Below are positions 26,184 through 39,777 of a DNA stretch of 64,000 nucleotides, in pieces. The notes below the pieces were generated by a model that saw nothing but the letters and a program-made list of their open reading frames with translations, was not told the DNA's origin and did no database searches. The position numbers were made by a program, and so were the translations under genes. Source of the DNA: Schwartzia succinivorans DSM 10502 (GTDB lineage: Bacteria; Bacillota; Negativicutes; Selenomonadales; Selenomonadaceae); contig NZ_FQUG01000004.1 of the NCBI RefSeq assembly GCF_900129225.1, forward strand, positions 222,565-286,564, read 5' to 3'. Numbering within the stretch: position 1 is the stretch's first letter; every line of letters begins with the position of its first letter.

Positions 26184-27272
26184 CTACTCAGCTAATACCA
26201 TACGCATACATTTCTTTACTACGTCGTCGGGAGCTTCCGTAATATCCGAAACATGTCCTATTCTGTCCAGAAGAACCCAATGTACGATGCCGTTCACCGT
26301 TTTTTTGTCATGAAGTGTGGATTCGAACATCGCTTCAAGGCTTACTCCTTCTGCTTTTGTCGGCAGATGCAGCTTTTCTATAAGCGCTGTAAGACGCTGT
26401 ACCTCTTCGTCCTTCAGCAATCCGAGCTCACGGCTTATGTTAGCCGCTCCAATCATGCCTATTGCAACGGCCTCACCATGATTATACCTCAAATATCCTG
26501 TTTCTTTCTCAATCGCATGTGCCATTGTATGACCGAAATTCAGGATACGGCGGAGTCCTTTTTCTTTTTCGTCCTGCGTGACGACGTCGGCTTTAATTTC
26601 GCAGGAGCGTCCTATGATATGCTCCAGTGAGGACTCTGCCAATGCCTGAATTTTTTCCGTGTTGTCCTCAAGGTACCTGAAGAAATCCTCGTCGTAAATC
26701 GCTCCGTATTTTATTATTTCACCGAGTCCTGTATATATTTCACGTTTAGGAAGGCTTTCGAGGCAGGATATATCTATCAGTACGAATTTCGGCTGATAGA
26801 ACGCTCCAATCATGTTTTTACCGAGGCGGTGGTTGACCGCCACCTTGCCGCCAACGCTGGAATCCACCTGGGCAAGAAGACTCGTGGCAAGCTGAATGAA
26901 GGGAACTCCACGCATATATGTTGCCGCTACAAATCCCGTCAAATCTCCCACGACACCGCCGCCGAGAGCAAAAATCGGAGATTTGCGGTCAAGGCCGAGC
27001 TCTATGGCACGGGTGTATATTTTCTCAGCTGTTTCCAGTGATTTTGAGGTTTCTCCGGCAGGAACAACAAACACGTCTGCCTGCAGTCCGGCTTTGGTGA
27101 TACTTTCCTTTACTTTTTCGGTGTAAAGCTTTCCAACATTTGAATCTGTAACCAAAAGAGCTCTCGAAGAAAATTTATGCTCTCCAATCTGTTTTTCAAG
27201 CTCTTCAGCCAATCCTTTTCCTATTGTTATGTCATATCCATTTACAGGAAGCGCAACCTTTACTTTACGCAT
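26184..27272 (-). CDS. aroB: 3-dehydroquinate synthase
   Basis: AroB performs the second step of the shikimate pathway, making 3-dehydroquinate from DAHP with NAD and a divalent metal. Visible motifs are FALGGGVVGDLTGFVAATYM, QLATSLLAQVDSSVGGKVAV and the metal-binding histidines in LNFGHTMAHAIE and YNHGEAVAIGM. The length of 362 residues is normal. The ATG overlaps the aroK stop region by 8 bp, with AGAGGG upstream. Confidence 0.97.
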   Translation of the reverse strand: MRKVKVALPVNGYDITIGKGLAEELEKQIGEHKFSSRALLVTDSNVGKLYTEKVKESITKAGLQADVFVVPAGETSKSLETAEKIYTRAIELGLDRKSPIFALGGGVVGDLTGFVAATYMRGVPFIQLATSLLAQVDSSVGGKVAVNHRLGKNMIGAFYQPKFVLIDISCLESLPKREIYTGLGEIIKYGAIYDEDFFRYLEDNTEKIQALAESSLEHIIGRSCEIKADVVTQDEKEKGLRRILNFGHTMAHAIEKETGYLRYNHGEAVAIGMIGAANISRELGLLKDEEVQRLTALIEKLHLPTKAEGVSLEAMFESTLHDKKTVNGIVHWVLLDRIGHVSDITEAPDDVVKKCMRMVLAE

Positions 27273-27798
27273 GGCAGCAGCCCTCTCTTTTTACATAATG
27301 TACGATTTCATCCGCAATCTGCAGCGGAGACTGTTCACTGGTGTCCACAAAATAATCCGCATGGCTGTACATCTCCCTGCGTTCTTCAAGGAGCGCGCAA
27401 ATTGCAGCCCGTCTGTCTCCCTCGTCCTTTCCGTCAAGAACGGGACGTACCCCAGGACGCCGTGTGCGTTCCAGGATTGTTTCCACATCTGCTGTGAGGC
27501 AGATAATTATCCCGTTCTCGTGAAGGATTTTTCTGTTTTCCTCGCTCTTTACGGTGCCTCCGCCCGTAGCGATAACAACGTGGCGCCGTCCCGAAAGCTC
27601 CTCGACCGCTTCACGCTCTGCACGCCGAAAGTACGCTTCTCCATCTGAAGCGAATATTTCAGGAATCTTCCGCCCTTCCTTTGCCTCGATATACTGGTCC
27701 ATATCTACGAAGGAAAAGCCCATACGGTTTGCCAGCACTCTCCCCGTGCTGGATTTCCCTGTCCCCATGAAGCCTATAAGAACGATATTTTTCTTCAT
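27265..27798 (-). CDS. aroK: shikimate kinase
   Basis: The 177-residue protein is a P-loop kinase that phosphorylates shikimate. Walker A is GFMGTGKSSTGRVLA, the shikimate-binding aspartate is in VDMDQYIE, and IATGGGTVK and the lid RPGVRPVLDG complete the set. The start at 27798 has AGGTGA 5 nt upstream, and the aroC stop ends just before it. An ATG 11 codons upstream lies inside aroC and is unlikely. Confidence 0.95.
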   Translation of the reverse strand: MKKNIVLIGFMGTGKSSTGRVLANRMGFSFVDMDQYIEAKEGRKIPEIFASDGEAYFRRAEREAVEELSGRRHVVIATGGGTVKSEENRKILHENGIIICLTADVETILERTRRPGVRPVLDGKDEGDRRAAICALLEERREMYSHADYFVDTSEQSPLQIADEIVHYVKREGCCHA

Positions 27799-27799
27799 A

Positions 27800-28954
27800 T
27801 CATTCACCTGCAAGACGCGCCTTATAAGCATTCATTGCCGACAGTAAATCTGTCATAGCATCTCCGCCGAATTTCTCTACAACGGCACGGGCGATGACAA
27901 ACGCCGCCATAGCCTCACCTACAACAGATGCCGCGGAAACAGCACAGACGTCGCTGCGCTCCTTGCATGCCAGCACTGCTTCCTTTGACTCTATGTCTAT
28001 TGAATGAAGCGGTGTCATAAGCGTTGGAATCGGCTTCATAACTGCACGGATTGTGATTTCCTCTCCGTTGGTCATGCCGCCCTCCAGTCCGCCTGCATGG
28101 TTTGTCCTGCGGTATACCTTCTTGTTCTCATCATAGTACATTTCATCATGGGCTTTGCTGCCGGGGAGTTCTGCGTATTCGAAGCCTGCTCCGATTTCAA
28201 CGCCCTTTATTGCCTGAATCGACATCATTGCACCGGCAAGCGCCGCGTCAAGACGGCGGTCCCACTGGATATGGCTTCCAAGCCCTATAGGCGCGCCACG
28301 TACTATTACTTCAAATACGCCGCCAAGAGTATCTCCTGCTTCCTTTGCCCCGCGGATGCGTTCCTTCATTTTTTCTTCTGCTTCGGCATCATAGCAGTTA
28401 AGCTCAGAGCTTCCTTTACCTATTTCATCACGATTGATTTTATCTTCATTTACCTTTATTCCGCCGATTTCTACGACGTGAGATACAACCTCCATGCCGC
28501 ATGCTGAAAGAAGAGCCTTGCATACTCCCCCCACTGCAACGCGCATAGCTGTCTCTCTTGCGCTGGAGCGCTCAAGTATATCCCTGATATCTTCTCTGTC
28601 ATATTTCTGCACGCCAACATAATCCGCATGTCCCGGACGTGCCGCCGTAACTTTTTCACCTGCAGGATTGCCGAATGCCGCCATGCGGTCAGTCCAGTTT
28701 GTCCAATCCTTGTTTATTACCGAAAGGGTTACAGGTCCGCCAAGTGTCTCTCCGAAACGGACTCCTGACAAAATCTCCACACGGTCAGTTTCTATCTTCA
28801 TTCTCCCGCCGCGGCCGTATCCCTGCTGCCTGCGTGCGAGGTCTTTGTTTATTGCTTCCTCAGAGAGTCCGAGTCCTGCCGGAATACCTTCTAAAATCGC
28901 GGTAAGACGCGGTCCGTGAGATTCTCCCGCAGTCATAAAACGAAGATTTCCCAT
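27800..28954 (-). CDS. aroC: chorismate synthase
   Basis: AroC forms chorismate from EPSP using reduced FMN. Family signatures are FMTAGESHGPRLTAILEGIP at the N-terminus, RPGHADYVGVQKY and ERSSARETAMRVAVG in the middle, and GGMTNGEEITIRAVMKPIPT near the C-terminus. The length of 384 residues is typical. GGAGG precedes the ATG. It heads the aroC-aroK-aroB-surE run and lies about 70 nt downstream of the pseudopilus operon, so the two may be linked or separate. Confidence 0.97.
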   Translation of the reverse strand: MGNLRFMTAGESHGPRLTAILEGIPAGLGLSEEAINKDLARRQQGYGRGGRMKIETDRVEILSGVRFGETLGGPVTLSVINKDWTNWTDRMAAFGNPAGEKVTAARPGHADYVGVQKYDREDIRDILERSSARETAMRVAVGGVCKALLSACGMEVVSHVVEIGGIKVNEDKINRDEIGKGSSELNCYDAEAEEKMKERIRGAKEAGDTLGGVFEVIVRGAPIGLGSHIQWDRRLDAALAGAMMSIQAIKGVEIGAGFEYAELPGSKAHDEMYYDENKKVYRRTNHAGGLEGGMTNGEEITIRAVMKPIPTLMTPLHSIDIESKEAVLACKERSDVCAVSAASVVGEAMAAFVIARAVVEKFGGDAMTDLLSAMNAYKARLAGE

Positions 28955-29027: not shown

Positions 29028-29561
29028 TTATGAAACAGATGAAAAAATGTAAACCATAACAGTTCCCTCAAACTGTCCGTTTTTGTCAGTTTTTCCCTGC
29101 ATTTCACGGATATCTGTAAATCTTCCGTCCTGCTCAAGCAGATACAGAAAATCCAGCCATTCAAAATATGTTCCCGACGCAGATACGACAATCTGCTGCT
29201 CCTTGTAGGCTTCAAAGGATTTTTCGTCCCCCGGAAGTATTTTCTTTATTTTCACTCCGCTTTTCCTGCTCCACTGCTGCAGCGATGTCAAAAATGACGC
29301 CGAATCCATCTGCTTCGGAAGCAGTCCTGAAACAATTTTTTCCTGTTTTCCCATACGCTTCACGTCATCTGCGGCGTTTTTATGAAGCGATGCAAAGCGC
29401 TCAAGCTGCTTTTTATGCTGCTTCAAAAGCTCAAGCTCGCGTTCTGCGGATGCGGTTTCTTCTTTCTGCTTTGGATAAAGATAAAAAATAAAGCCTGCCG
29501 CCAGTACGGCAAAAATAAAAAACACCGTCACGAATTTCTGCACTCCGCGCGTAAGTGTCAT
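29028..29561 (-). CDS. PilO/GspM-like pseudopilus assembly protein
   Basis: The 177-residue bitopic protein has an N-terminal membrane segment (about residues 10-28), a coiled coil (about 35-70) and a small periplasmic ferredoxin-like fold. The stretch GLLPKQMDSASFLTSLQQW resembles the PilO signature, where inner-membrane PilO pairs with PilN. It follows the fused GspL/PilMN-like gene after 11 nt, the position of gspM after gspL or pilO after pilN. Membership is supported mainly by architecture and context. Confidence 0.75.
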   Translation of the reverse strand: MTLTRGVQKFVTVFFIFAVLAAGFIFYLYPKQKEETASAERELELLKQHKKQLERFASLHKNAADDVKRMGKQEKIVSGLLPKQMDSASFLTSLQQWSRKSGVKIKKILPGDEKSFEAYKEQQIVVSASGTYFEWLDFLYLLEQDGRFTDIREMQGKTDKNGQFEGTVMVYIFSSVS

Positions 29562-29572
29562 ATCTCCACTTC

Positions 29573-30742
29573 CTAAAATTTCATTATCAGGGAGAACTGT
29601 ACACGTCCATCCTTTTCTGTCTCCACTGTTTCAAGTCTGGGAGCTTCCTTCAGAAGAAGCGGCTCCTCCGCCCATATCCCTACATACTCGGATACCAGCT
29701 CATAGCTGTTTGCTGTGCCCTTTACGCGTACAGCTCCTTTTCCCGTTGTTTCTATACCGTCAACCGCGACACCCTGAACCGTTTTAGCTCCGAGAGCAGT
29801 AAAAACAGCGTACCAGGATATCCGTTTTTCACCAAGTGTCTTCAGCGTGTCCGAAGATGCTTTTATTTCTTTTTTCTTATTCAAAAAATCCTTCTGCAGC
29901 TCCAGCTCACCCGAACGAAGAAAAAGCTCCTGTTCAACAGCTTTCTTTTCCTTCTCAATCCGCATGAGCTTCCATTCTCCTGTTCCGTATACCAGTGCAA
30001 AAATAAAAAGCATGGGGAGAATCAGACATGCTGATGTCTTTCGCCAGTCCCACGCTCCCTCCTGCCTGAAGTTCGGAAGAAAGTTTTCATTTTGGGGAAG
30101 GCCGCGCATAATACGCCAAGCAGCGAAAAAAGCCTGCTGAAGCGGTTCTTTTTCGTCTCCCATTTTTTCCCATGTAAAAAATACAGGCAGGGATGCAGTC
30201 TCATTTCCCCATACTGCACACTGCTCTCTTTCCTCAAAAAGAAGCTCAGATTTCTCTACCACAGCAATAACCCTGAAGCCGTTATCTCTGAAGGCCTTAT
30301 ACAGTTCATCCATTAACTGATACTCCATAATACCTATTTCGTAGGTATTATCAGCTCCCTTGCGGTAGGTATAGACATGCTTTACAAAGGGCGAGTTGGC
30401 TTCAATCTCCCAATGCATTGCCTCAGGAATTTCCTTATCGGCAAGGGGCGGGAATTGCTTTTCATAGGAAAAAATCATATTCTCCGGCACAGAGAGCACG
30501 ACCTTCTTTTCCTTTATTCCATTTTCAGCACACCTGACTGCCAATTCTTCCGCAAGCTGACCGATATGCTCAAAGTGAGTCGGATATTCCTGCTTATCCT
30601 CCAGAAAAATCCTGCAGGAATCCGTGTGCAGCATGTGCAGCTTATCCGCCTCCGCGCGCTGCAGGAAAGAATAATAAACTGCATCCTGATTCAAAAACAC
30701 CCCTATGCAGCTTTTGACCTCACTGCGAAAAAAACGTTTCAT
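29573..30742 (-). CDS. GspL-like protein: PilM-type cytoplasmic domain fused to PilN-type membrane domain
   Basis: The 389-residue protein starts with a cytoplasmic region (about 1-215) resembling a shortened PilM/GspL actin-like domain, for example IGVFLNQDAVYYSF and VVLSVPENMIFSYEKQFP. NFLPNFRQ near residue 220 resembles the PilN NLLP-type box. One membrane segment lies at about 236-255. A coiled coil (about 260-305) and a periplasmic PilN-like fold follow. PilM plus PilN in one chain is the layout of GspL, which anchors the secretion ATPase to the inner membrane. The first domain is shorter than usual PilM. The gene overlaps the GspK-like gene by 4 bp. Confidence 0.75.
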   Translation of the reverse strand: MKRFFRSEVKSCIGVFLNQDAVYYSFLQRAEADKLHMLHTDSCRIFLEDKQEYPTHFEHIGQLAEELAVRCAENGIKEKKVVLSVPENMIFSYEKQFPPLADKEIPEAMHWEIEANSPFVKHVYTYRKGADNTYEIGIMEYQLMDELYKAFRDNGFRVIAVVEKSELLFEEREQCAVWGNETASLPVFFTWEKMGDEKEPLQQAFFAAWRIMRGLPQNENFLPNFRQEGAWDWRKTSACLILPMLFIFALVYGTGEWKLMRIEKEKKAVEQELFLRSGELELQKDFLNKKKEIKASSDTLKTLGEKRISWYAVFTALGAKTVQGVAVDGIETTGKGAVRVKGTANSYELVSEYVGIWAEEPLLLKEAPRLETVETEKDGRVQFSLIMKF

Positions 30743-31155
30743 TGAACCGCACCCCAGCGCTCTATGCGGTATCCCGGCTCGTCCTTTTTAGCAAGTTTCG
30801 CATACAGTCTTGTTTTTGTTTTTTCCTTTTTACTCTCTGCCATGAGATAAATTATCTCTCCCTGTTTCCGCGCGTAAACCGCGCAGGATATCCCGTTCTC
30901 TGTATTCCTTCCTGACCATATGCTTTTGGATTTGGCCGCCGAAAGGGTGTTCACTGTTTCCGGATGCGCTCTCAGGTACTCCAAAGCCCCACGGATACCG
31001 TTCTGCGCCTCCATCTGAAGTGCTGCCGATGCTATAAAATGACGCGTTTCCTTCATTTCTCTGCGAACAACTATATAGGCAGACATGGCAAGAAGCGAAA
31101 GAATCAAAATAACACATATTCCCGATAAAGCCGCAAAGCCCTTTTGATTTCCCAT
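30739..31155 (-). CDS. GspK/PilX-like minor pseudopilin
   Basis: The 138-residue protein starts MGNQKGFAALSG and then has a single hydrophobic helix (about residues 8-30). The Gly-Phe junction fits prepilin peptidase cleavage, but the usual glutamate at +5 is leucine. That is a feature of GspK, the pseudopilin at the tip of the pseudopilus. It is much shorter than classical GspK (about 300 residues), so PilX-like is an equal reading. It sits between the GspJ-like and GspL-like genes, as K does in gsp operons, overlapping neighbours by 1-4 bp. Confidence 0.65.
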   Translation of the reverse strand: MGNQKGFAALSGICVILILSLLAMSAYIVVRREMKETRHFIASAALQMEAQNGIRGALEYLRAHPETVNTLSAAKSKSIWSGRNTENGISCAVYARKQGEIIYLMAESKKEKTKTRLYAKLAKKDEPGYRIERWGAVQ

Positions 31156-31664
31156 TATATGCCACCACGAGTATTATTCATCATGTACTCAACAGTACGA
31201 AGCTCGTATTCATGTCCTGTCGCCCGATTTCTTCCCTTTATATGTATATAGAGTCCTGCTGCTCCTACAGCATCAAAATCCATTTCCTCGATTTCAATCG
31301 TTCCAAGAGTGCTTTCTCCGGTAAGAGGCTGACTGTTTCTGCGTATCCTTGGGAAATTTTCCCGCGTAAGCTCGTAATTAACTCTTGTTGTTTTGTTATC
31401 CGAGGTTTTTCCGTAGATTGTTATGCGTCCGCTGTCACATTCTACACGGTCGGCAAACATAACGTCATTGCATATACGTTTCATTGAAAACTGGACATCA
31501 CGCTGGAGGGCCCAGTCACTAACCATGAAAAAATATGATTTTATCCCCCACCCGAAAATGACAGTCAGTGAAAGCAGGAGTACAGCAAAAAGCGGCAGGG
31601 ATACGGACAGCTCCATCATGCTGAATCCTTTTTCCTGCCGCAGCCAATGCAGGTTTTTATCCAC
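31155..31664 (-). CDS. GspJ/PilW-like minor pseudopilin
   Basis: About 169 residues are read from a GTG at 31664, which has GGTGG just upstream and gives a short leader ending RQEKG before the cleavage site FSMMELSVS. The glutamate at +5 is present and a hydrophobic helix follows. An in-frame ATG at 31727 would need a 36-residue leader, unusual for a prepilin, so the GTG is preferred but not certain. A polar C-terminal domain of about 115 residues fits PilW/GspJ. The gene overlaps the preceding pseudopilin by 8 bp. Confidence 0.65.
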   Translation of the reverse strand: MDKNLHWLRQEKGFSMMELSVSLPLFAVLLLSLTVIFGWGIKSYFFMVSDWALQRDVQFSMKRICNDVMFADRVECDSGRITIYGKTSDNKTTRVNYELTRENFPRIRRNSQPLTGESTLGTIEIEEMDFDAVGAAGLYIHIKGRNRATGHEYELRTVEYMMNNTRGGI

Positions 31665-32046
31665 CACAGTCCACCAGCTTCCTGAATTTTTCCTCCCGCT
31701 TGTCTGCAGCGCCCTTCCATCTGACACAGACCGTCACCTCACGAAGGCCTGCTCCTTCCTCGGCGCCCCTCATGGTCGTCTCGACTTCATATTCCCTGCC
31801 GTTCAGATTTTTTATATCCGGTCCGTTGTCTCCAAGCCACGGAATATCTCCCGTGTACCCGCGGTAAAAGACTGCATTCGCTTCAATACGCGCCATCTGT
31901 TCACGGGCAAGATATACCGCAGCGTGCGATGCCTCTGATTCTGCTCTCTGCCGATTCAGCATTCCGTATGAAAAGCACAGCAAAGATGCCGTGACGAGCA
32001 AAAATCCTGTAACAGCTGTTTCCAAAAGCAAAAAACCTTTTTCCAT
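31657..32046 (-). CDS. GspI/PilV-like minor pseudopilin
   Basis: The 129-residue protein begins MEKGFLLLETAVTGFLL, a very short prepilin leader with Gly-Phe cleavage and glutamate at +5, followed by one hydrophobic helix. AREQMARIEANAVFYR after the helix is like the conserved AxxQME region of PilV/GspI proteins. Two cysteines, one at the very C-terminus, may pair. It directly follows the GspH-like stop codon with no gap. Confidence 0.75.
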   Translation of the reverse strand: MEKGFLLLETAVTGFLLVTASLLCFSYGMLNRQRAESEASHAAVYLAREQMARIEANAVFYRGYTGDIPWLGDNGPDIKNLNGREYEVETTMRGAEEGAGLREVTVCVRWKGAADKREEKFRKLVDCGG

Positions 32047-32505
32047 CTAATCCTCCGGCGGATTGTCCGACACGCGTATACGCCCCTCGACATCTATGAT
32101 GACATACTGCCACAATCCATGATAATCAAGCTTCAGCGTAGCAGGGTTTGCAGTTCCAAGGACTCCGAAGCTGACACGTTTTATATCTCCGGTAATCCTC
32201 ATACCCTCGGGAAGACTGTGCCGCTCATAGCTTGTCCTGTTTACATAGATATAATATTCGCTGCCGCCTCCGCGAAATGTAGGATATGAGTCAGCCCTTA
32301 TGTCGCTGAATCTCTCACTCTGCGACGGATACCCCATTGAGATCTCCCTGAGATACCTTAGCTCAGAGACAAGAGCTGCTGCCTCACGCCGAAGAACGAG
32401 TTTGTCTGAAATCCCTGTAAATACCGGTACAGCCACTGCAGCCGCCAAGGAAAGCAGAGCCATTACGACAAGTATTTCAAGCAGCGAAAAGCCCTTCTGT
32501 TTCAT
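32047..32505 (-). CDS. GspH/FimT-like minor pseudopilin
   Basis: The 152-residue protein starts MKQKGFSLLEILVVMALLSL, a classical prepilin leader with Gly-Phe cleavage and glutamate at +5. The C-terminal domain (SFGVLGTANPATLKLDYHG, VIIDVEGRIRV) looks like the GspH/FimT beta-sandwich. The start at 32505 has GGGGA upstream and follows the peptidase stop by one base. In-frame ATGs further upstream lie inside the peptidase gene. Confidence 0.8.
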   Translation of the reverse strand: MKQKGFSLLEILVVMALLSLAAAVAVPVFTGISDKLVLRREAAALVSELRYLREISMGYPSQSERFSDIRADSYPTFRGGGSEYYIYVNRTSYERHSLPEGMRITGDIKRVSFGVLGTANPATLKLDYHGLWQYVIIDVEGRIRVSDNPPED

Positions 32506-32506
32506 G

Positions 32507-33079
32507 CTATATCCCCTGTATCCAAGCCCATACTGTGTTTCCGTATAAAAAAGCAAGCCATGCCCCTGCAGCGAGAAAAGGACCAAATGGAATCCGGGAT
32601 TTCATAGTCTTTTTCATCTTCATCAGCAGGAAAACAGCAGCTGCTCCTCCAAGCCAGAATGCGAAAACAAGCGCAGCCAATGTTTTCGGCCATGAAAGCC
32701 AAAAGCCAAGCACAAATGCCAGCTTGATATCACCGCCGCCCATTCCTCCACGGGTGATTGCGCGCAGAAAAAGAAGCAGTGCGAGCGCTGCAGCAGCACA
32801 CACAAAAGAAGAAATCCATCCGTCATAACCCTTCATAAAATGAAGCAGTACCGCACAGCCAAGCATCCCTAACAGCCAACGGTCAAAAATAAGTCCGTAC
32901 TTTACATCAAAGACAGCTATTCCGCTCAAAAAGAAAGCAAAGACCGTTCCATGAATTATTTCCATCGGCGTTTCGAATACACACGCTGACCAAAAGCGCC
33001 CTATAATCGTCCCCACCAGTATCCACACCATGTGACGTTTAAAAAGCTCCCGGGTCAGCTTCAGCTCTGCTTCCTTCAT
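32507..33079 (-). CDS. type 4 prepilin peptidase-like protein (A24 family), peptidase domain only
   Basis: The 190-residue membrane protein has about six membrane segments. The two catalytic aspartates of the A24 family are seen in AVFDVKYGLIFDRW and in GMGGGDIKLAFVLG (GxGD motif). The N-terminal cysteine-containing N-methyltransferase domain of full-length PilD/GspO is missing, so it may cleave prepilins without methylating them. It overlaps the GspG-like gene by 4 bp. Its position inside the pseudopilin operon supports these pseudopilins as substrates. Confidence 0.85.
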   Translation of the reverse strand: MKEAELKLTRELFKRHMVWILVGTIIGRFWSACVFETPMEIIHGTVFAFFLSGIAVFDVKYGLIFDRWLLGMLGCAVLLHFMKGYDGWISSFVCAAAALALLLFLRAITRGGMGGGDIKLAFVLGFWLSWPKTLAALVFAFWLGGAAAVFLLMKMKKTMKSRIPFGPFLAAGAWLAFLYGNTVWAWIQGI

Positions 33080-33465
33080 TTATCCTTGCGTCCGAAATCC
33101 GTAATGGTATGTGACTGGCAGAGTGCCTGTGATTTATCCTCCGACAGTGTGTAGCCGGTCTCGGTTATCTCCACGGTCGTACCATCACGCAAAAGACATT
33201 TTCCTTTTGGCGGCTTCAATTTTTCCGCATCCTGAATATAATCCTTCATATCCGTTGTAAGATTCTTGGGATATGAGCCATGCTCTGCTTCATACAGCAC
33301 GATAGCAGAATTTAAAACATTCAGGTCTGCCTGAATCTTGCTCGTATTCGCCAGTGCTACCGCTCCTGTAAACCGTGGTACGGCAACCATGGCCAACACG
33401 CCGATGATAGACATGACGAGTAGAAGCTCCAACAGCGTGAAACCCTTCTGATTCCCCAATTTCAT
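33076..33465 (-). CDS. GspG/type IV pilin-like major pseudopilin
   Basis: The 129-residue protein starts MKLGNQKGFTLLELLLVMSI, with Gly-Phe cleavage and glutamate at +5. After the hydrophobic helix comes LNVLNSAIVLYEAEHGSYPK, the segment typical of GspG and minor type IV pilins. Two C-terminal cysteines (GKCLLRDG and QALCQSH) may form a disulfide. The start at 33465 has GGGGGA 6 nt upstream; earlier in-frame ATGs are less well placed. It is the first gene of the operon, as expected for the most abundant subunit. Confidence 0.85.
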   Translation of the reverse strand: MKLGNQKGFTLLELLLVMSIIGVLAMVAVPRFTGAVALANTSKIQADLNVLNSAIVLYEAEHGSYPKNLTTDMKDYIQDAEKLKPPKGKCLLRDGTTVEITETGYTLSEDKSQALCQSHTITDFGRKDK

Positions 33466-33506
33466 AAGCATTCCCCCATTTAATGATTTATTCACTTTCT
33501 TATTCT

Positions 33507-33698: not shown

Positions 33699-35279
33699 TC
33701 AATATTTCTTCGGCGTATCGGCAGCCGGCAGACGTTCGTACTTCACACCCGCAGCGGCATTAAATTTCATCATGAGCCGCCTTGAAAGCTCTTTCCAGTC
33801 TTCAAAGATTTTCAACGCGTTGCCGCGCAGAGCATCAGCGAACTGTTCCTTTGAAAAAACCGCGGAGGCGTTAATCAGACGCACGGAATTTGCCTCAGAC
33901 CGCTCCACCGCATCCCTTACAATAGGCGACATAATATTGAAGTAACCCTGTGTCAGTGCCATGACTTCATTTGAGGTCCAGTACATTTTCGTGGAATCGT
34001 AGGTATCGCGCAGCGCACGATATTCCTTAGGCACCTCCGAAACCGCGAAGGGAACGAAAGGATTCTCGTAGGGCGTGTTCATGGACATCCAGACCACCGG
34101 AGACGGGAGTGCATCACTGACCTGCGATATATGTGTGTAGCTGGTATTCGATGAAAGAAATGGGCGCTCGCCTATCTCTGACGCGTAATGGTACGGCGAG
34201 CCGTACATGCCCGCCAACGTGGTCTTCGTCTTGTCAAACTCGGTTCCCTGATAATAGTCGCGGTAAATTCGCGCGACGTCTTCGACGTTCAGCTTTTTGT
34301 CAGGACGCACAGAGAAGGGATAGGTTTTCTCATCCCATCCCCCAACACGGGACGGAAGCTTCTTCGACGGCGCAACGAGGCTCATGCCTCGCCAGACACG
34401 ACGCTTTGAATAATACGGATGGTAGAACTCCTGCGACTGCAGCGATTTCACCCAGTCCACACGGCCTTCCTCGTCGTATGCAGCCCAGCCGGCGTCCTTC
34501 AGCATTTGCGGCAAATTGGGATTGAAAATCTGGTTCGAATCGCCCTCACGGATACCGCGAATCCTAAACTGGCTCGCCGCGATGAAAAAATCCCCGTCAG
34601 GAATCTTTTCCGCAATCCAAAAGCCGCCTTTTCCCGTTGGCGACATCTGCATCTCGAAAACCCAGGCTTCTTCCCTGTCTGCGACGGCCAAAGTCTCACC
34701 GGAGCCCCAGAGTCCGTATTCGTCAATCAGCGCGCCCATCAGTTCGACGGCTTCACGGGCGGTCCTGCAGCGTTCGAGGGCTACTCGGGAGAGCTCGGAG
34801 GCGTAAAATATCCCTCCACCTTTTTTGAACGGCACTTCGGGCAAGTGCGCAGACATATCGGTACATTCCCCCATCATCAGGCCGTGCTCATTGACTATGC
34901 CATAATCGGCATCCAAATAGGCATAAGTGTGCCCGACCTCAGGAATATAGCCGATTGCCCGCGTGCGTGACCTGTCGGGGAAGTCGTAATCTGCGCTGCG
35001 TTCAGGCGCAACAAGGTTCGGCTGGTCGTAAGTGTTGTATTCCGGCATGGCACCCAGCGCCGCCGCAGAAGCATATACCGGGCGCATGCTGCCTGCCGGA
35101 TGGTCCTTTGAAGGCACATAAGCGAGATTTACCTCACCGTCGTACCCGTCGTTGGAATGGGAGACCATCACGCTCCCGTCCTCCGAGGCTCCCTTCGTCA
35201 CCACGATTACCGAGCATGCCTCTGAGCACTCCCCAAGGAGCAAAAACATCATCAGTCCCAAAGCCAGCTTTTTCAGCAA
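33699..35279 (-). CDS. secreted C69-family dipeptidase (PepD-like)
   Basis: The 526-residue protein has a signal peptide (MLKKLALGLMMFLLLGECS) ending just before CSVIVVTKGA. In C69/U34 peptidases the cysteine exposed at the new N-terminus is the nucleophile, so signal cleavage would create the active enzyme. Further family motifs are SHSNDGYDGEV, YGIVNEHGLMMGECTD, EAWVFEMQMS and the C-terminal half expected for the full length. It probably hydrolyses dipeptides in the periplasm or outside. It is a single-gene unit with its own terminator, between the pseudopilus operon and a chemoreceptor. Confidence 0.88.
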   Translation of the reverse strand: MLKKLALGLMMFLLLGECSEACSVIVVTKGASEDGSVMVSHSNDGYDGEVNLAYVPSKDHPAGSMRPVYASAAALGAMPEYNTYDQPNLVAPERSADYDFPDRSRTRAIGYIPEVGHTYAYLDADYGIVNEHGLMMGECTDMSAHLPEVPFKKGGGIFYASELSRVALERCRTAREAVELMGALIDEYGLWGSGETLAVADREEAWVFEMQMSPTGKGGFWIAEKIPDGDFFIAASQFRIRGIREGDSNQIFNPNLPQMLKDAGWAAYDEEGRVDWVKSLQSQEFYHPYYSKRRVWRGMSLVAPSKKLPSRVGGWDEKTYPFSVRPDKKLNVEDVARIYRDYYQGTEFDKTKTTLAGMYGSPYHYASEIGERPFLSSNTSYTHISQVSDALPSPVVWMSMNTPYENPFVPFAVSEVPKEYRALRDTYDSTKMYWTSNEVMALTQGYFNIMSPIVRDAVERSEANSVRLINASAVFSKEQFADALRGNALKIFEDWKELSRRLMMKFNAAAGVKYERLPAADTPKKY

Positions 35280-35440
35280 AAGAACCGCCTCCTTTGACTC
35301 ATACAGTTTTTTGATTTATTCAAGCATCTTTATTATACCTAAATAGTTACATTAATACGATAACGGAAAGTCCATATTCGACTTACCACTGCTTCAATTC
35401 CCAATAAATCAATGTATCCGAAAAAACTTATGTTGTGGAA

Positions 35441-35483
35441 TGATAAAAATCACCTCTCAACGATGTTCTCGTTGAGAGGTGAT
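35441..35483 (-). terminator. intrinsic terminator of the first chemoreceptor gene
   Basis: A perfect 13-bp stem CACCTCTCAACGA / TCGTTGAGAGGTG with a 5-nt loop is followed on the minus strand by ATTTTTATC. Confidence 0.9.
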
Positions 35484-35518
35484 TCAAATTAACGGTATGA
35501 ATCTGACTTAATGTCAAA

Positions 35519-37591
35519 TCAGAACTTGAACATGCTGGACTCCTTCTGGAGGTCATCAGCCATGTTGGAAAGATGGTGGCTGGATGCCGCAATCTCTTCC
35601 ATGGAAGCGGACTGCTCTTCCGTAGCCGCCGAAATTGATGTGATATTTTCCGTGACCTTCTGCGTAGACTGCTCGACGTTTTCTGCATCAGCGAGAACAT
35701 CTCTGCTCTTGTCGGCCACTTTAGTAGCATTAACTGCGGATTCCTTGACCATTTCATCAACGAGACGGATATGGTCTGCAATTACATTGAACTGCTTGCC
35801 TGCGTTGGTAACAGCTTCGCTGCCTACGCGGACCTTTTCCGTACCTGCGTTCATGGATTCAACAGCCTGACTTGTAACCTTTTGGACGCCGCCAATCTTC
35901 TCAGCGATTTCCTGTGCCGCGCCTGCGGACTGTTCAGCAAGCTTTCTGACTTCATCAGCAACTACCGAGAAGCCGCGGCCCTGCTCACCTGCACGGGCAG
36001 CCTCAATAGCCGCGTTCAGTGCCAGGAGGTTCGTCTGCTCTGCGATACTCTGAATCGTTCCGATAATCTCTCCGATTTCCTCAGAGCGGCGGCCAAGCTC
36101 TCCGACAGCCTTCGCGGACTCGTTTACTGTTTCAAGAACATCACGAATCTGCTCAACTGCGGAATCAATAGCAACTACGCCGTCAGCAGCAGCCTGTCCT
36201 GCCTTGCCGGAGGACTTGCTGATTTCTTCGGAGGATTCTGCGATATTCGTGACCTGGTCTGCCATGTCGCGGATATTATCCACCATGCCGTTCATCGTCT
36301 CATTCTGCTTGCTTGCAGATTCGGCGATGTCTCCGACGCGCTCAGCCACATGGGTAATGGTTTGTGCAACCTGTTCTACACCCTGTGACATCTGAGCCGA
36401 GGAGTTGGATACCTCATCGGCACTGCCTTTAATCTGACTGAGCAGATTTTTCAGCTGTTTAGTCATTTTATTGAAGGACAGTGCAAGATGTCCAATCTCG
36501 TCATCAGTTTCGACAATCAAATCATCCTGACGAAGGTCGCCGTTTGCGATGCGGTCAGCTGATTTTTCAAGAGTACGAAGCGGAGCAACGATGATATTGG
36601 AAATCCACATGGTTGCAAAGAAAATAAGAACCAATGCAACAACCAGGACAATTCCAAGTGTCATACGCATGCTGTTGACGCTTGCCATGAGCTGGGATTT
36701 ATCAACAATCGTCAGATATTTATAGCCCGTTTTATCAGAGATATATACGTTGACGAATTTTGATACACCGTCAAGCTCGATCTCGCGAAGACCCTGCGAT
36801 TTTGTATCCAATGCTGCCAAATCTCCAAGTCCGGACTCAGCCAGCTTCTTGAAGTTTGCATCCTGATGCTTCGGATCCGCGACAATGACATCATCAGCAT
36901 CAAGCATCATGATGTAGCCTGTTTCACCGATTTTAATCTCACTGATCATGTTGGTAACAACCGGAAGGTCGATATTGATACCAATAACACCCAACGGCTG
37001 ATTGCTCATGCTCTTGACTGTCGCAAAGATACCAACCGTCGGAGTACCTTTTGATGTCTTGAACGGCTTTGTGATACGAACAGCATTCACATCAGCCATG
37101 CTGTCCTTGTACCAGCCGCGCTGACGGGAATCGTAACCTTTTTTGCGCTTTACTGCCGGATACTGCAGATAGCCGCCGTCCGTTGTACCGTAGCTGACAA
37201 CGGAAATTGTGCCTTTGTTTGCATCAGCAAGGCGTTTGAACATCTGATAAGCCTGCAGCTCGAAGCCGCCCTTTGCTTCCGGCTCCATGGCAATCATGCC
37301 GTCAGGACCTGCCGCACCGTCAATATATACAGTAATATTGCCGCCATTGCGCAGTACCGGGTCATTTGCCATGTTCACAACGGTATCTCTAAGACCACGC
37401 AGGAACAAATCCATGGAGGCGTCTACCTGCGCTGCCTGCAGTTCCGTTTCCTCCTCAAACTTTGCAATTTCACCCTTTGTGATTACACGGTCAAGCACGA
37501 TACCCAAACCAAGCATTACGGCAACAAACAATATCGATATGAGTACCATAATCTTCTGCTTGACACTAAACCTTGACAAAATTTCTTCCAT
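35519..37591 (-). CDS. methyl-accepting chemotaxis protein with dCache-type sensor
   Basis: The 690-residue chemoreceptor has membrane segment 1 near residues 14-34, a large periplasmic double-Cache-like sensor (about 35-285; [23 protein letters not shown]), and membrane segment 2 near 290-315. A HAMP domain follows, and then the cytoplasmic signalling hairpin, whose tip contains [20 protein letters not shown]. No C-terminal CheR-tethering pentapeptide is seen; the chain ends with SSMFKF. The start at 37591 has AGGAGA 8 nt upstream; an ATG 14 codons earlier is less likely. Ligands such as amino acids or organic acids are typical of dCache sensors but cannot be assigned. Confidence 0.93.
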
Positions 37592-37926
37592 TCCACATCT
37601 CTCCTTCGCATAAAAAACTTTAACAACACTCATGTATTTTATTATGAATAGATTCCCCTAATGATGATAATTCGACAAGCACTGTAAAACTCCTTCTATA
37701 ATTTCATCACAATCTTTAGGAAAAATAACCTATCCCGCATCATGCATTTTAAAGCGAAATTCCTTGAAAAATTGATAAATTTCAGAAGCAATTCTAAACA
37801 TGTTCATTTATTTAAGACTATCGAACTATAACCAAGTCATTAGTATAAAAATATTATTAATTTCTGTCAACAATTTATTTTCTATCATAAGTTTAGTATT
37901 TACTTTTGAAACAATATCGATATGCA
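37592..37926. other. AT-rich intergenic region between the two chemoreceptor genes
   Basis: About 330 bases without a supportable gene. It is strongly AT-rich and must hold the promoter of the first chemoreceptor gene. No clear -35/-10 pair, tRNA or repeat was recognised. Confidence 0.5.
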
Positions 37927-37964
37927 TAAAAAAGAAGCCACCGCTGTATATAGCGATGACTTCT
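37927..37964 (-). terminator. intrinsic terminator of the second chemoreceptor gene
   Basis: A hairpin AGAAGTCATCGCT / AGCGGTGGCTTCT (a few mismatches) is followed on the minus strand by TTTTTTATG, directly after the gene. Confidence 0.8.
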
Positions 37965-37977
37965 CTTGAAATTCTAT

Positions 37978-39777
37978 TTAAATTTTGAATTTGACGACGG
38001 CATTCTGAAGATCTCCGGCCATTTCCGAAAGCTTACGGCTCGCCGTTGCAATTTCATGCATGGATGCCGTCTGCTCTTCTGTCGCTGCAGATACTGACTC
38101 AGCCTCGGAAGCAACACCTCTGCTCTTGTCGTCAATAGAAACAATGGCTTCTGTGATGTGGTCTGCGCCACTCTTCAGGTCTCCAACGAGTTCTGCCATG
38201 CGTTTGGAGGACTCAGCAACCTCGGATACCATTGTAACGATTTCATTGAAGGTTGCACCTGCGCTGTCTACCGCAACAGTACCTCCGTCGACCTTCTCAA
38301 TACCCTGCTGCATAACATCTACAGCATTCTGAGACTCGTTCTGGATGCCATGGATAAGGTTTGCAATCTCGCCTGCCTGCTCACGGGACTGTTCAGCAAG
38401 CTTTCTCACCTCATCTGCAACAACTGCAAATCCACGGCCGTGCTCGCCGGCACGTGCGGCCTCGATTGCTGCGTTGAGTGCGAGGAGGTTTGTCTGCTCA
38501 GCAATAGCGGAGATTGCGTCAACAATCGCACCAATCTGTTTGGAGGATTCACCAAGGGAACCTATTACAGCGGCAGTCTTACCGACTGCTTCCTTAATCT
38601 GCTGCATCTGCTGTACAGCTTCGCTGATTGTCGCTCCGCCATTTGCGGCTGCGTCGCTTGTTTTCTGAATCTGCTGCGTGGACGAATTAAGACGCACAGC
38701 AAAGTCGTCCATATATTTCTGCAGATTTTCGGACTGCTCAGATGCATCTGCAACCAGCGTCGTCTGCTCTGCGCATGCGCTGGCAACATTTACGACGGAA
38801 TTTGCAACGGACTCACTGACATCCGAGGACTGCTCTGCGCTTGAGGTAAGCTCCTGGGATGCGGAAGCAACGTATTCTGTCGATTCGCTGATTTTTCTCA
38901 TCAAATCACTGATATTATCCTGCATCTTACGCATCGCGCGCGCCATGCTTCCGATTTCATCAGGTCTGTCAACAATTTCCTGCTCCATAGCCTTATCGCC
39001 CTGATTTTTACGGAAATCACCGCCGCCCATAGTAGCAAGACGTCCCTCTACATACTGAAGCGGACCGGAGATGCGGGCACCAATCCAGATAGCAAAAGCG
39101 ATAAATACAACCATGAGAACAACAAGGCACGCAATCATCTGGATTGCCTGAGCCTTCAGCTCAGCTGCGGCCTCAGCTTCCTTTGCTGCGCACATGGTGT
39201 CAATATCATCAATCCACACGCCTGTACCAAGAACCCAGTGGAATGGCTTATACTCGACAGTGTAATTGCGCTTTGGAAGCGGTGTGGATTCGCCGGGCTT
39301 AGCAAACATGAGGTCTGTAAATCCGCCGCCTTCTTTTTTACCGTTCTGAATCATTTCCTGGATAAAAAGGCGTCCGCTTGGATCCTTTGAATTGATACGG
39401 GATTTTCCTTCCGTGTCGCGTCCGAGAAGAACAACGTTCACACCCTGATCAGTATCAATCCAGAAATATCCTTTTCCATCATCATAGCGCATATCGCGTA
39501 CGATGTCGGCAGCAGCCTTTTTTGCCTGCTCCTCTGTCATCTTTCCGGCAACCTGAGCTTTGTGCATCTGGTCAATAACACTGACAGCAATTTCTGTTTC
39601 CTGCTTCAGCCTCATCTCAACAGCTGCCTCTGCCTCTTTGCGGAAATCCCTGATTTCACCATTTTTCATCTGAATCATTTCATAGGTGAAGATTGCGCCC
39701 AGCACAAATATCGACACCAGTGAAACACCGACGATTATCGCGATGAAACGCGTCTTCATTGAAGAAAAACTAAACAT
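37978..39777 (-). CDS. methyl-accepting chemotaxis protein with sCache_2-type sensor
   Basis: The 599-residue chemoreceptor has membrane segment 1 near residues 10-32, a single-Cache (sCache_2/SMP_2) sensor near 40-190 with [18 protein letters not shown] and [15 protein letters not shown], membrane segment 2 near 205-228, HAMP, and the signalling hairpin with [20 protein letters not shown] at the tip. The sensor class often binds small carboxylates, which is family knowledge and not proof here. GGGGGAG precedes the ATG. The two chemoreceptors share tip sequence but have unrelated sensors, so they are not simple duplicates. Confidence 0.93.

Follow-up and report, generated by a model that had tools for sequence, protein, structure and literature searches.

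The question raised by contig NZ_FQUG01000004.1 (C9) of Schwartzia succinivorans DSM 10502 is which machine is built from a set of pilin-like genes that stands there apart from any motor. Within the 64,000 nucleotides (nt) of this contig that were analysed (the window), eight tightly packed open reading frames occupy positions 29028-33465 of the minus strand in the order G-O-H-I-J-K-L-M, and no gene for an ATPase, a platform protein or a secretin is found in the window, as an initial annotation had already noted. That annotation left two options, namely that the missing parts lie elsewhere in the genome or that the operon encodes a minimal or novel envelope-spanning apparatus. The first has been borne out, while the second is contradicted by the genome search and by synteny. 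The operon is the downstream half of a known gene cluster, cut between pilC and the gene for the major pilin, and it belongs to one complete machine spread across three loci (C6, C9 and C13). With a probability of about 0.8, it supplies the filament subunits, the peptidase and the inner-membrane alignment complex of the only type IV machine of this genome, which would most likely serve DNA uptake.

The assembly comprises 2.66 Mb in 20 contigs and is rated 100% complete, and the whole-genome profile search that the initial annotation had called for returned one PilB, one PilT, one platform protein and one secretin. Exactly two T2SSE ATPases pass the cut-off, the PilB and the PilT, which are adjacent on C6 with the single-copy platform protein beside them (gene order comM-pilB-pilT-pilC-histidine phosphatase). 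The secretin, also in single copy, is encoded on C13, where the order is galU-pgi-178 amino acid (aa) protein-secretin-LuxR-type regulator. The 178 aa protein alone has no match in Pfam, NCBIfam or PDB, and the profile of its relatives matches GspC (3e-5) and, weakly, PilP (0.09). The A24 peptidase (O) and the PilO (M) of the operon are the sole copies in the genome, and the prepilin motif model matches only in the window operon, where it nevertheless misses I and K. Signs of a second pilus machine in the form of further prepilins, another peptidase or another secretin were not detected in the genome. A third match to PF00437, on C18 (5.6e-4, below cut-off), sits among hydrogenase maturation genes and was rejected as a pilus ATPase. 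In several family members, a LuxR-type response regulator gene is located 3' of the secretin gene (L012 9296-10030), and such a regulator might make pilus expression responsive to a signal.

The genes of the operon and their landmark are as follows, with a slash marking the prepilin cleavage site:

33076..33465, minus strand: G, major pilin, 129 aa (139 aa from an alternative start at 33495), leader MKLGNQKG/FTLLE
32507..33079, minus strand: O, prepilin peptidase, 190 aa, A24 domain with GGGD motif
32047..32505, minus strand: H, minor pilin, 152 aa, leader MKQKG/FSLLE
31657..32046, minus strand: I, minor pilin, 129 aa, leader MEKG/FLLLE, syntenic family profile 3e-37
31155..31727 (start approximate), minus strand: J, minor pilin, leader RQEKG/FSMME, syntenic family profile 1e-60
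30739..31155, minus strand: K, small minor pilin, 138 aa, leader MGNQKG/FAALS, syntenic family profile 1e-44
29573..30742, minus strand: L, truncated PilM fused to PilN, 389 aa
29028..29561, minus strand: M, PilO, 177 aa, PilO in Pfam 1.6e-8
26184..28954, minus strand: aroC (27800-28954), aroK (27265-27831) and aroB (26184-27272), a housekeeping landmark outside the machine

The origin of this arrangement becomes clear from forty stretches of same-class genomes that were annotated with iterated profiles. In two genomes of other families (G017 and G002), pilB-pilT-pilC-G-O-H-I-J-K-PilM-PilN-PilO-aroC-aroK-aroB is one continuous run, with comM upstream of it in G017, and a further genome (G005) has the same run preceded by the secretin and GspC/PilP-like genes and followed by aroK-aroB. 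The synteny comparison proposed with the initial annotation thus finds the motor block and the operon joined, followed by aroC-aroK-aroB. In S. succinivorans, an ancestral comM-pilB-pilT-pilC-pilins-pilMN-pilO-aroCKB cluster would have been severed between pilC and G, and this cut would explain why the window is without motor genes. G191, a member of the same family, has the same run with a fused pilMN except for a segment between pilC and G (L106 5863-8593), at the exact junction where the S. succinivorans cluster is cut; in this segment lie a glycosylase-like gene of the HhH-GPD type and a pair of leuC/leuD-like genes of the aconitase family. In G179 the cut is placed between K and L. At least two changes between the joined and the split state are required by the sampled cases on a nine-marker tree, and L and pilB are close together in about half of the 27 judgeable family members and far apart in the rest (draft-genome positions). 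Cuts between the motor and pilin halves recur within the family. This recurrence implies that motor and pilin genes need no linkage, and searches confined to a window or a locus would miscall split genomes as having no system.

That the split is an assembly artefact was considered and rejected, as both broken ends run on into other genes: on C6 the gene after pilC codes for a histidine phosphatase, and a dipeptidase gene precedes G about 101 kb inside C9. In the single-contig genome G057, the fused pilMN is interrupted by an IS605-type OrfB (TnpB-like) transposase gene (L113 10884-12765), which amounts to a natural knock-out. In G182 (L142 8601-13517), about 4.5 kb with a UvrD-like helicase gene separate pilB from the only trace of pilT, a 125 aa piece, and the motor block of this relative is apparently broken. 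The pilus locus of another family is organised differently: around pilBTC lie several G-like pilin genes (G015, L144; and G053, L123 7204-11416, with five of them), and no minor pilins or PilM/N/O were detected in the vicinity.

The eight-gene operon described in the initial annotation is real. It occurs in the same order in relatives, and all eight genes are recovered by profiles of such same-order relatives in the class, whose E-values of 1e-37 to 1e-124 within the set exclude chance. Neighbouring genes mostly overlap by 1-4 nt or adjoin directly; the overlap of I and J is longer, and 11 nt separate L from M. N_methyl is matched in Pfam by G (3.8e-8) and H (3.1e-8), and below the cut-off by J (0.03), while I and K have no Pfam match whatsoever. 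The models GspG (46.4 bits) and ComGC (41.9 bits) on G and GspH (36.7 bits) on H do not reach their cut-offs. The fifth residue past the cleavage site is glutamate in G, H, I and J and serine in K, and the GspK-type tip pseudopilin likewise has no glutamate there. In the peptidase O, the A24 domain (Peptidase_A24 in Pfam, 2.9e-14) is the only domain found and the N-terminal methylation domain is not matched; a peptidase of this kind may cleave prepilins without methylating them. Upstream of the operon, at window positions 33699-39777, are a C69-family dipeptidase gene and two genes for methyl-accepting chemotaxis proteins, the first of which carries a dCache domain.

The most unusual part is L, which had been described as a GspL-like PilM-PilN fusion. 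It is a PilM-PilN fusion, but the match of its sequence is to PilM and PilN and not to GspL. The family profile of L finds PilM with its first half (1.6e-8) and PilN with its second (3.7e-6), with GspL at 0.31, and this ranking is repeated with the PilN (5.6e-31) and PilM (1.7e-13) of the class and GspL of Escherichia coli (2e-4); in Pfam the PilN part stays below the cut-off. No signal was obtained between the L and M profiles and E. coli HofM and HofO, which are too diverged. L consists of an actin-like domain (about residues 7-214), an NFLPN box at 220, a long helix containing a membrane span (about 233-305) and a ferredoxin-like domain (about 307-389). The AlphaFold2 model (14 sequences; mean predicted local distance difference test, pLDDT, 83; predicted template modelling score, pTM, 0.58) has the same actin-like domain, long helix and ferredoxin-like domain, and VIA-align comparisons among Foldseek candidates place it nearer to PilM (Z 17.0; 202 residues, 4.0 Å) than to cytoplasmic GspL (Z 12.7), while residues 307-389 align with periplasmic GspL domains (Z 11.7).

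Aligned with separate PilM plus PilN from three other families, L corresponds to the N-terminal ~170 residues of PilM, lacks a stretch of ~150 and resumes at the N-terminal box of PilN (NFLPN). The missing stretch contains the second phosphate motif (IIDIG) as well as the GGGS motif. By pattern match, the three motifs of the nucleotide site are absent in all 14 fused proteins examined and present in each of the three unfused PilM proteins of other families, which predicts that nucleotide binding is lost. The fused form is the family rule, as no separate PilN-sized frame was found among the matched family members; outside the family, nearly all PilN matches are frames of 150-250 aa. The separate PilM of G060 (284 aa) is also motif-less, and motif loss and fusion are therefore distinct events. 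A second, full-length PilM-PilN fusion (524 aa) is encoded in G078 (L145 10176-11750), which groups with the unfused families and has no pilC within the 18 kb stretch around the fusion. Its placement implies two changes, although long branches make this less sure. The layout of L looks like an independent arrival at that of GspL, which is the simplest account of these sequences. A tentative extension, which is rather doubtful as a whole, is that one diderm Firmicute family rebuilt the GspL design: PilM would have lost its nucleotide-binding half and been fused to PilN alongside a GspC-like secretin partner while PilT was kept, giving a retractable and partly secretion-like DNA-uptake pseudopilus that needs no ATP binding by PilM. 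No PilM-PilN fusion in a pilus system was recognised in the titles and abstracts of the open-access papers listed, 15 of 150. The motif-less fusion is a natural experiment on the origin of GspL from PilM and PilN, and it also probes the need for nucleotide binding by PilM in a working PilT-driven pilus.

The identity of the machine follows from several parts taken together. PilT, directly after pilB, scores 373.5 bits in the PilT/PilU family against a curated cut-off of 319.1. The secretin scores 227.3 bits with PilQ and 211.8 bits with GspD, neither reaching its cut-off, and among solved structures PilQ (1.2e-40) is nearer than GspD (6e-30). M had been called PilO/GspM-like, of which the first half stands: its family profile matches solved PilO structures at 2.8e-18, while GspM is at noise level only (0.13 with the GspM model, 0.11 with E. 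coli GspM). Curated Gsp models all miss their cut-offs (GspD 212/351, GspE 480/630, GspF 296/424 and GspG 46/89 bits), and so do the PilB, PilC and PilQ models. Of the parts of a type IVa pilus, the extension ATPase and platform are present on C6 and the peptidase and several pilins in the window operon, with PilT, PilM/PilN/PilO and a PilQ-type secretin besides; the small gene beside the secretin is a candidate for PilP. By contrast, GspL with GspM, the absence of a retraction ATPase and curated Gsp equivalogs above cut-off, which mark type II secretion, are not found, and the monoderm Com pilus has neither the secretin nor the PilT that are present here. The pilus-like hallmarks which the initial annotation had recorded, namely the PilN-like box and PilO, are thus the telling ones, and the locus appears by homology to be the type IV pilus/competence locus of the class rather than a type II secretion operon. 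In reviews, the type II secretion system is a type IVa pilus that has lost PilT, and PulL corresponds to PilM plus PilN (PMC10191384; compare PMC6668835).

A retractable DNA-uptake pilus is the most likely function, because PilT, ComM (next to pilB), ComEA (just upstream of comEC), ComEC and DprA are all present in the genome and because the matching locus of Veillonella parvula (pilB-pilT-...-peptidase-pilins) is needed for transformation, its deletion causing a loss of at least 3 logs (PMC5397411). In another study, a type IV pilus locus with PilQ is conserved in all Negativicutes examined (PMC5007114). The pilus parts are there in single copy, in conserved order and with homologs; that they work together, and on DNA, is the probable reading by homology. 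In this process, O would cleave the prepilins, and PilB with the platform protein PilC (C6) would polymerise G beneath a tip of H, I, J and K. The platform would be joined to the secretin (C13) by PilMN-PilO together with the GspC/PilP-like protein (C13), PilT (C6) would retract the filament and so draw DNA into the periplasm, and ComEA and ComEC would carry it inwards, where DprA would protect it.

Several points speak against a DNA-uptake pilus and have to be weighed. Single parts appear ambiguous or lean towards type II secretion: PilB scores slightly higher with GspE (480 bits) than with PilB (430 bits), the platform protein scores best on the GspF model, and the small C13 protein is nearer to GspC than to PilP. 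Moreover, comEC, comEA and dprA are present in many genomes without known transformability, and the same pilus may serve in adhesion or twitching. The first group of points would fit a scattered type II secretion system, in which a short periplasmic pseudopilus pushes folded proteins through the secretin, and so would the collinearity of G-H-I-J-K-L-M with gsp and the GspL layout of L. Such a system is nevertheless quite improbable, given a PilT over its cut-off, an L and an M that match PilM/PilN and PilO, a secretin nearest to PilQ, a pil-aroKB neighbourhood that resembles E. coli hof and not gsp, and the failure of every type II model to reach its curated cut-off. The pilus might instead work mainly in adhesion or twitching, with DNA uptake in a side role or missing, and the same gene set with PilT would suffice. 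This reading can coexist with the preferred one but is rather unlikely, since ComM adjoins pilB, the genome has ComEA, ComEC and DprA, and transformation of V. parvula depends on the related locus.

The split could also be read as loss of function in a decaying remnant, for which the interrupted L of G057 and the pilT fragment of G182 are precedents among relatives. This is very improbable for S. succinivorans, where all parts including motor, platform and secretin are intact open frames and the leader and peptidase motifs are retained. For a minimal or new apparatus that works without motor or secretin there is nothing beyond their absence from the window, and it can practically be dismissed, as motor, platform and secretin genes are present once each in other parts of the genome and, in relatives, are joined to the operon. 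The candidate new apparatus is thereby removed and replaced by a complete, testable assignment of parts for one pilus machine.

Compared with known systems, the likeness to gsp is one of gene order: G-H-I-J-K-L-M is collinear, but the exact gsp order claimed initially fails at the peptidase, which lies between G and H here and comes last in E. coli (gspG-H-I-J-K-L-M-O). With GspL (EpsL, PulL, XcpY), L shares the layout of an actin-like cytoplasmic domain, one membrane span and a ferredoxin-like periplasmic domain; unlike GspL, it is nearer in sequence to the PilM and PilN of its class, keeps the NFLP box of PilN and is partnered by PilO and PilT, not GspM. The hofMNOPQ-aroKB genes of E. coli (type IV pilus/DNA-utilisation genes) likewise have PilM/N/O genes directly upstream of aroK-aroB, but hofM and hofN are separate, and the secretin and PilP-like genes are within the same cluster. 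The Negativicutes locus (Antunes 2016, PMC5007114) shares the type IV pilus cluster and the PilQ-type secretin of diderm Firmicutes, and the available part of that source mentions neither a split nor a PilM-PilN fusion. In the V. parvula locus VPAR_RS05490-05435 (Knapp 2017, PMC5397411), two traffic ATPases, the second of them PilT-like, and an F-domain protein are accompanied by a prepilin peptidase adjoining the pilins, followed by pilin-like and hypothetical genes. Its gene count is matched by the 12 genes of G060 (family f25; B-T-C-G-O-H-I-J-K-PilM-PilN-last gene), whereas the S. succinivorans cluster is cut after pilC and has a single fused, shortened PilM-PilN.

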